From Candidatus Peregrinibacteria bacterium (GTDB taxonomy: Bacteria; Patescibacteriota; Gracilibacteria; UBA1369; LOWO2-01-FULL-3): a DNA stretch of 64,000 nt. Location: contig JAPLYN010000001.1 of the NCBI GenBank assembly GCA_026395515.1, positions 1-64,000 on the forward strand, written 5' to 3'. This document shows positions 8,799 through 51,138 of this stretch, in pieces. Position numbers and translations under genes: made by a program. The notes below the pieces were generated by a model that saw only the letters and a program-made list of their open reading frames with translations, was not told the origin of the DNA and did no database searches. Numbering within the stretch: the stretch's first letter is position 1; each line of letters opens with the position of its first letter.

Positions 8799-9119
8799 AT
8801 GACTACAATCGAATTTCTTAGACAATTTAAACTTGGTGAATATGCTATCTTTGATCTTGTAGCTTCATTTTTAGGAATATATTTACTCTCTCCATTTCTT
8901 TCTAAAATATTTAAAAAAATAAGATTAGATATACCAAAAATAAATTGGATTTATCTCACTTTGCCAATTGGAATTTTAGCCCATCTTCTTGTTGGAAAAA
9001 TAACTCCTATGACTAGAGATTTTCTCGATTTGAATAGTAGCTATTTATTGAAAATATTAATTGTTGGATTACTATTTTTTGGATTAAAGAATATTAAAAT
9101 AATTAAGCACACAAAATAA
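8799..9119 (+). CDS. Small membrane protein of unknown function
   Basis: The 106-aa protein has about three hydrophobic segments (around residues 18-35, 48-65 and 83-98) and a basic C-terminal tail. I recognise no family. It ends directly at a hairpin that serves as terminator and converges on the large RNA-like block to its right. Confidence 0.5.
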   Translation: MTTIEFLRQFKLGEYAIFDLVASFLGIYLLSPFLSKIFKKIRLDIPKINWIYLTLPIGILAHLLVGKITPMTRDFLDLNSSYLLKILIVGLLFFGLKNIKIIKHTK

Positions 9120-9152
9120 AAGGACCACCAATTTTTAATAGTGATCCTTTTA
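9110..9152. terminator. Bidirectional terminator hairpin
   Basis: AAAAGGACCAC pairs imperfectly with GTGATCCTTTT. On the minus strand it is followed by TTTTATTTTG, which would end the large RNA read from 9716; on the plus strand by a weaker TTTT, which would end the gene at 8799-9119. Confidence 0.65.
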
Positions 9153-9716
9153 ATAGCATCTTGCCTAAAACATCCCCCTGTTGTGTAAGATATTTAAAGA
9201 AACTTCACACATAAATGTGCTGCTGAATTGCTTTACGTGGCGACCTTGCGGCGACCCATAAACAGCGAATGTTTCACTGGCGAAAATGTGATGAAAGACT
9301 TCCTTTCATAGTATTAACGTCGTATGGTCTTTGCTTGAACATCATTGCTAATATTCTTGCTCAACCACTGAGAGCTTCATTCTTTATAACCTTGCGGCAA
9401 TAAAGATCGTTAGCACCCAAGAAAACATCAACCGGATCAAATCCAGTTCTTTTTATAAACATCCTTCGAGGCTTTCTCGAGAATGATTATAAAAGGGAAG
9501 TATCCCTGATAAGCATCCCTAACTTCTTGCGAAGTATCAAGCGCAGACAGAATTGTCTTTAATATCAGGTTTTCCTACAAAACTTACTCACTCATCATGA
9601 GAAGGAAAGTTTTAGGAAGAGCAGATGAACTAAGCCCAATAATTAGAGATTTAGTTACTCAACTCTTCCTAAAAGTATTTTTTTTATTTTTGTTTTATTT
9701 CAAAGATCAACTTACA
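9120..9716 (-). ncRNA. Candidate large structured non-coding RNA (~600 nt)
   Basis: This 728-bp gap has no credible ORF but has the signals of one transcript on the minus strand. A strong promoter (TTGCTT at 9750-9745, 17-bp spacer, TATAAT at 9727-9722) is at one end and a hairpin with a T-tract at the other. The body is full of hairpins: a perfect 12-bp stem at 9610-9621/9663-9674, AGACA/TGTCT near 9545-9558, TCGAG/CTCGA near 9467-9481, and ATGAAAG/CTTTCAT near 9291-9309. Stems at 9382-9405 and 9522-9535 are capped by GCAA tetraloops, and a third CC-GCAA-GG occurs near 9244-9251. GNRA loops favour the minus strand. It is not RNase P, tmRNA or SRP RNA as far as I can see. Size and ornateness recall the ROOL/GOLLD kind. 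Confidence 0.65.
9610..9690. other. 12-bp hairpin with T-tract on the plus strand
   Basis: TTTTAGGAAGAG and CTCTTCCTAAAA pair perfectly. Read on the plus strand, a long T-rich run follows, so it could also act as a plus-strand terminator. In the minus-strand RNA it would be the first helix of the 5' region. An inner AACTAA/TTAGTT pairing extends it. Confidence 0.5.
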
Positions 9717-9721
9717 ATAAC

Positions 9722-9750
9722 ATTATACAATAATTTATGGGAAAAAGCAA
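9722..9750 (-). promoter_or_regulatory. Promoter of the large RNA
   Basis: TTGCTT, 17-bp spacer, TATAAT on the minus strand. This is one of the best sigma70-type promoters in the window and has no ORF downstream, only the structured block. Confidence 0.7.
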
Positions 9751-50980: not shown

Positions 50981-50989
50981 TAGCCTGCT

Positions 50990-51075
50990 TTCATCGAGAG
51001 ACGGCGAGAGACTTATGCTCTATGACCCGTCAGCAACCTACCAAAAGGCAAGGTGCTCCAACTAAGTAAGATGGA
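50990..51075 (+). ncRNA. SAM-I-superfamily riboswitch aptamer
   Basis: P1 TTCATC (50990-50995) pairs with GATGGA (51070-51075). The conserved core reads GAGAGACGG, the tract CCGTCAGCAACC (51027-51038) and AAGGTGCT (51050-51057). P2 is GACGG/CCGTC (51000-51004/51027-51031). P3 is ACCT/AGGT around CC-AAAA-GG. The 3' P4 arm is short, so it could be SAM-I or the SAM-I/IV variant. It binds S-adenosylmethionine by family. Sitting on a mobile element, upstream of a 69-aa protein, is unusual. Confidence 0.8.
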
Positions 51076-51102
51076 CTTTGATCACAGTTTTTCAATTCCA
51101 AG

Positions 51103-51138
51103 CTCGATGAAGGTTTATAAAAATAACCTTTATTTTTT
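51103..51138 (+). terminator. Riboswitch expression platform
   Basis: CTCGATGAA (51103-51111) is the exact complement of TTCATCGAG (50990-50998, the P1 5' strand), so it can compete with P1. AAGGTT/AACCTT (51110-51115/51125-51130) then forms a terminator followed by TATTTTTTT. SAM binding would favour P1 and termination; this is inference from the pairings. Confidence 0.65.

Follow-up and report, generated by a model that had tools for sequence, protein, structure and literature searches.

A conserved structured RNA of about 600 nucleotides, probably a new non-coding RNA family, in one order of Patescibacteria

Between a 106-aa open reading frame (ORF; 8799-9119, plus strand) and a gene encoding a DEAD-box helicase, the 64,000-nucleotide stretch of Candidatus Peregrinibacteria DNA analyzed here (the window) contains a block for which a sequence-only reading had proposed a structured RNA of ~600 nt, spanning 9120-9750. 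The block proved to be the right one, with slightly offset limits: we infer an RNA of ~600 nt, encoded on the minus strand from ~9715 down to 9113, placing its start ~7 nt past the -10 box and its end in the T-run of the terminator. Comparison with related genomes indicates that this locus encodes a conserved, structured, non-coding RNA that founds a new family, a reading to which we assign a probability of about 0.85, expression not having been shown. Identity as a conserved structured non-coding RNA gene, taken by itself, we rate higher still. Its features are:

9722 to 9750, minus strand: sigma-70-like promoter (-35 element TTGCTT, 9750-9745; 17-nt spacer; -10 element TATAAT, 9727-9722)
9113 to 9715, minus strand: whole RNA gene (basis: folding and 12 full-length homologues)
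9683 to 9702, minus strand: A-rich leader GAAATAAAACAAAAATAAAA, conserved and unpaired in the consensus (alignment A5)
9611 to 9673, minus strand: hairpin P1 (arms 9673-9652 and 9632-9611)
9165 to 9615, minus strand: long-range helix P2, closing the body (9604-9615 with 9165-9176)
9180 to 9583, minus strand: long-range helix P4 (9573-9583 with 9180-9190; changes on both sides in 9 of 11 pairs)
9522 to 9535, minus strand: hairpin H7, GCAA loop (UUCG in one relative)
9263 to 9434, minus strand: 13-bp helix H11, closing the central domain (9421-9434 with 9263-9275; changes on both sides in 9 of 13 pairs)
9379 to 9409, minus strand: hairpin H13, GCAA loop (UUCG or AAAA in some relatives)
9333 to 9360, minus strand: hairpin H15, loop 9348-9345 of GNRA type in 12 of 12 sequences (GCAA, GUGA, GUAA)
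9317 to 9496, minus strand: central core used for the covariance models R1 and R2
9117 to 9152, minus strand: intrinsic terminator hairpin (H19, 14 pairs in the stem) and T-run

No Pfam family matches the ORF at 8799-9119, but at its end the DNA shows ~70% identity to that of two other genera (G036 and G012), which makes a real gene probable. The ORF and the RNA gene converge, the stop codon of the former lying within the terminator of the latter.

A DNA search recovers copies of the RNA that are 96% and 82% identical in two congeners, as well as a 68% match in another genus. The covariance model R1, built from five sequences of the 180-nt core, matches 12 loci in 11 of the 89 genomes of the order, distributed over three families (E 1e-50 to 4e-19). 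All of these homologues belong to one order of Patescibacteria (Ca. Peribacteria, Peregrinibacteria, Gracilibacteria); as cut for alignment they are 606-694 nt long, the distant members being 50-67% identical, and they amount to approximately six independent lineages. No further homologues were found in 353 genomes of the class, nor did the broader model R2 add any in the order or in a sample of 380 genomes from the phylum; the strict filters of these wide searches would have lost weak matches. Scanning ~85,000 species genomes for a sequence pattern returned eight of the same RNAs (from Candidatus Peribacteria, Peregrinibacteria and Gracilibacteria) and one chance match. As far as searched, the family is thus confined to this order, and its hosts so far are some tiny uncultured bacteria of lakes, groundwater and digesters. 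Its patchy presence there (11 of 89 genomes) implies that the RNA is not essential for the group. One bin (G077) holds two copies, 67% identical, on separate contigs (L047, L048), which represent either two paralogues or a mixed bin. Two weaker candidates were set aside: an Acidobacteria contig (L055) with the P1 pattern, which the core model does not match and which was taken as chance, and a weak R2 match in G085 (17 bits), where no P1-like hairpin was found by eye.

The RNAalifold structure computed on the full-length alignment (A5, 12 sequences) comprises 178 pairs in 19 helices, and 89.5% of its cells are paired, compared with 42-49% in slid versions of the model. Changes on both sides are seen in 102 of the 178 pairs (shuffle mean 65.5, slid controls 31-48), and the covariation score is 0.483, against 0.244 for shuffled and at most 0.146 for slid controls. 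The percentage paired is somewhat flattered, because the structure was derived from the alignment used for counting; the slid controls and the ratio of G-U to A-C combinations are less affected by this circularity. Considered alone, the core retains both-side changes in 30 of 61 pairs, with 91% of cells pairing. At paired positions G-U occurs 306 times and A-C 63 times, which identifies the minus strand as the one that folds. Predicted folding energies agree: the minus strand of the block folds at -182 kcal/mol, where 100 shuffles average -131 and none goes as low (z -7.88), folding of the plus strand is weaker (z -4.15), and the equivalent of the minus strand gives z between -5.6 and -9.7 in all 12 sequences. 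In the two copies of G077 (G077a, G077b), little separates the folding of the two strands; the strand is therefore assigned for the family as a whole and not member by member.

The body of the RNA is closed by the long-range helices P2, P4, H8, H10 and H11. Several stems picked out by the sequence-only reading have a place in this fold: its perfect 12-bp stem (UUUUAGGAAGAG/CUCUUCCUAAAA) is part of P1 (9662-9673 with 9611-9622), and its two GCAA-capped stems, at 9382-9405 and 9522-9535, are the covarying helices H13 and H7. Since the loop of H15 is GNRA throughout, and those of H7 and H13 vary, we infer that H15 is a candidate for a tertiary contact, and that the other two loops look like plain caps. 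Strongly conserved stretches include CGAAGGAU and YUUGAWC. A local hairpin around GGAUUUGAUCC was rejected, being only 81% paired; its strands fit H10 and H11 better.

The gene signals gain most of their weight from the homologues. A strong minus-strand promoter had been claimed for the window, and TTGCTT-17-TATAAT is indeed present; taken alone, it does not exceed chance, being equaled in 22% of shuffles. A promoter-like site nevertheless occurs at the same position and distance from the RNA, with 16-17 nt spacing, in 12 of 12 homologues, several of which have a perfect TTGACA -35 element. Three of the 12 sites are singly no better than chance, and together, judged as sequence, the 12 are convincing. 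The closing terminator hairpin noted in the window is likewise matched elsewhere, a 3' hairpin with a T-run ending the RNA in every homologue. Near-identical copies of the leader (GAAA-AAAACAAAAAT-AAAA) are found immediately 5' of ATG in relatives (L006 and L030, around position 1500), and an A-rich leader of this kind may be a general feature of the clade. A role as a genome-wide mRNA leader was rejected, the 15-mer being present once in the genome, as was a pairing of leader AAAAC with 3' GUUUU, which lacks covariation in genus g3.

That the RNA could not be assigned to a known family, as had been stated from the sequence, was borne out by comparison with Rfam. No family reaches its cut-off in the region, and at permissive thresholds (E up to 10 in the region, up to 0.1 in nine homologous loci) matches within the RNA stay at chance level; the OLE covariance model finds nothing at these thresholds, and those of ROOL and GOLLD are unmatched at the region and the homologous loci. 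No earlier account of such an RNA family in Patescibacteria was found in the literature. Elsewhere in the window, at 50988-51113 on the plus strand, a SAM-I riboswitch scores 49 bits, above the Rfam cut-off. RNase P RNA and tmRNA are also long structured bacterial RNAs, there with housekeeping roles, but the locus is neither in disguise, as both families have their matches elsewhere in this 1.3-Mb genome (contigs C6 and C4).

The likeness to ROOL and GOLLD suggested by the sequence-only reading holds for size and complexity only; the new RNA has neither the phage nor the tRNA-island surroundings of ROOL and GOLLD. OLE, a Bacillota RNA, forms a membrane-bound RNP, as a homodimer, with OapA among the OLE-associated proteins. 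Like the new RNA, OLE is ~600 nt long, with an ornate multi-helix fold, a patchy distribution and a precise function that remains unresolved (PMC12054373, PMC12286853); the new RNA differs in lacking a match to it in Rfam, in its phylum, and in having no conserved neighbor gene. Its neighbors vary by genus, and Pfam recognizes none of those scanned as an OLE partner, a result that does not extend to the rest of the genome. ROOL, which phages and prophages encode, in many cases close to tRNA islands (PMC12286853), is similarly a large ornate RNA with its own fold, many hairpins and no identified partner protein; the new RNA has no phage or viral match, no tRNA island and no match to the ROOL profile. 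GOLLD, also large, elaborate and of unknown function, is longer (often >800 nt) and phage- and tRNA-associated (PMC12286853), and its Rfam model does not match; GOLLD assembles into RNA-only cages. OLE, ROOL and GOLLD all form homo-oligomers without protein (PMC12286853). The descriptive group of large ornate bacterial non-coding RNAs takes as its criterion a long gene with extensive covarying structure and no coding function, which on the sequence evidence the new RNA meets, transcription not being shown; it is a member of none of the three families, and resembles them in size and complexity.

To bind bS21, OLE mimics the Shine-Dalgarno duplex (PMC12054373). In the new family, a mimic of this kind, of the 16S rRNA 3' tail, is clear in one member only and is not conserved, and 16S-tail mimicry is for that reason not claimed; the segment in question (ACCUCCUUUUUAUG, in L033 of G003, the counterpart of window 9487-9504) resembles the 16S 3' tail of the window genome (CACCUCCUUUUAUGG). 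Antisense pairing to rRNA was also rejected: no 10-mer is complementary to 16S rRNA, and for 23S rRNA the only complementary 10-mers are two A-rich, overlapping ones, which shuffles also give.

Could the locus encode something other than a free-standing non-coding RNA? A dual-function RNA that also specifies a small protein, like SgrS or RNAIII, would be compatible with ORFs of 33 to 88 aa in single members, but no ORF is common to all lineages among the 12 homologues, in 11 of 12 members the longest ORF is no longer than chance would give, and hardly any indel has a length divisible by three. Within the window RNA the only ORFs are of 44 and 56 aa, unconserved and no longer than in shuffles, in keeping with the gene-free block originally described; we regard a coding function as extremely unlikely. 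Leaders are common among the structured intergenic RNAs of bacteria, and two competing pairings near the ends of this RNA might suggest a riboswitch that permits read-through into a neighboring gene upon ligand binding. The same-strand downstream gene, however, varies by genus (a VF530 protein, a kinase/deaminase fusion, a MarR regulator) and is convergent in the window, no homologue lacks a terminator after the RNA, and the competing strands lie ~430 nt apart, with the terminator not among them. Adjacency to the DEAD-box gene, once offered as a hint, is restricted to the window and G003, which share a genus; G002, the third member of that genus, has two other genes in between, and its RNA is flanked by NUDIX. 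Flanking genes elsewhere encode VF530 and a methyltransferase (genus g3), proteins without Pfam match (G087), a kinase/deaminase fusion and a ribosome-binding GTPase (G088), RecR and STAS (G077), or MarR and a methyltransferase (G080). Because neighbors differ between genera, the helicase gene is incidental and cis-regulation very unlikely; judged from gene order, the RNA is an independent gene whose helicase neighborhood reflects local history. An empty-site test in G001 was uninformative, the best match of the DEAD-box gene there having only 43% identity, with no close orthologue.

The patchy occurrence in the order, the different genomic site in each genus and the bin with two copies might also be expected of a mobile or phage-derived RNA spread horizontally, whether a prophage analogue of ROOL or GOLLD or the remnant of an intron or retroelement. 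Against such an origin, no match was found in 2.9 million viral contigs (searched by pattern) or in phage and plasmid records, the site is stable within a genus, and those neighbors with Pfam matches are housekeeping or regulatory (RecR, an EngB-like GTPase, MarR, methyltransferases). No phage-like gene, reverse transcriptase, integrase or tRNA island was recognized near the homologues, which have at most single tRNA genes in their neighborhood, and we consider mobility quite unlikely. Catalysis is suggested by the size of the RNA, its number of helices and its strongly conserved stretches, and a ribozyme hypothesis has been voiced for OLE (PMC11332333); the RNA is nevertheless unlike any ribozyme family in Rfam, RNase P RNA is encoded elsewhere in the genome, and a ribozyme seems to us improbable.

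The preferred reading remains a conserved non-coding RNA gene independent of its neighbors. What comparison establishes, at the level of sequence, is the set of homologous RNAs, their 19-helix fold and its strand, the lack of coding, and the independence from neighboring genes. On this reading the gene is free-standing and its RNA, inferred to be trans-acting, would be transcribed from the minus strand between its own sigma-70-type promoter and its own intrinsic terminator. Under the mechanism that we propose, the RNA would persist as a folded particle, either protein-bound like OLE or RNA-only like ROOL and GOLLD, in which the GNRA loop might make a fixed tertiary contact. Such a trans-acting particle is an inference, possible but short of even odds.

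More tentative still is an exchange of strands within it. The segment CUAAAA (window 9610-9615), for which the outer part of P2 competes with P1, can pair with a 5' UUUUAG in P1 or with a 3' UUUUAG (9165-9170), the latter as an outward extension of P2. Although mutually exclusive, both alternatives are kept, with 94% and 92% of cells pairing over 12 pairs, and for 10 of 12 sequences the predicted energies with one or the other enforced differ by less than 3 kcal/mol. Genus g3 shows joint change in all three strands. Most of this joint change, however, is one event on one branch (g3), which makes strand exchange a lead and not a result. A U-A-U triple helix of the three strands was rejected, being broken by the g3 sequences. 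In a simple reading of these pairings, P1 would form first, with CUAAAA paired to the 5' strand during transcription, and the 3' strand would take over the foot of P1 once transcription is complete, so closing the particle or switching it between two states. This switch is a doubtful proposition, as is the composite picture of a new class of RNA machine specific to this branch of the candidate phyla radiation, in which a free-standing RNA of ~600 nt assembles into a particle (RNA-only or with proteins) that the 5' end, internal CUAAAA and the 3' end would toggle or seal through a conserved exchange of three strands.

Nothing identifies a partner, ligand or phenotype, and without a known function we make no claim to a categorically new system; what is described here is a new family within a loose kind of large ornate RNAs. 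That its shape has been kept by evolution nonetheless implies that the RNA does some job, itself unknown. There are few classes of large structured non-coding RNA, and each has set off a prolonged hunt for its function; the present one comes from the Patescibacteria, a large, mostly uncultured group of bacteria with small genomes. With 12 full-length sequences, a structure supported by covariation, and the strand, promoter and terminator in hand, probing, cryo-EM and metatranscriptome tests can be designed now. Strand exchange, if true, would provide a large RNA with a built-in, testable mechanical step.
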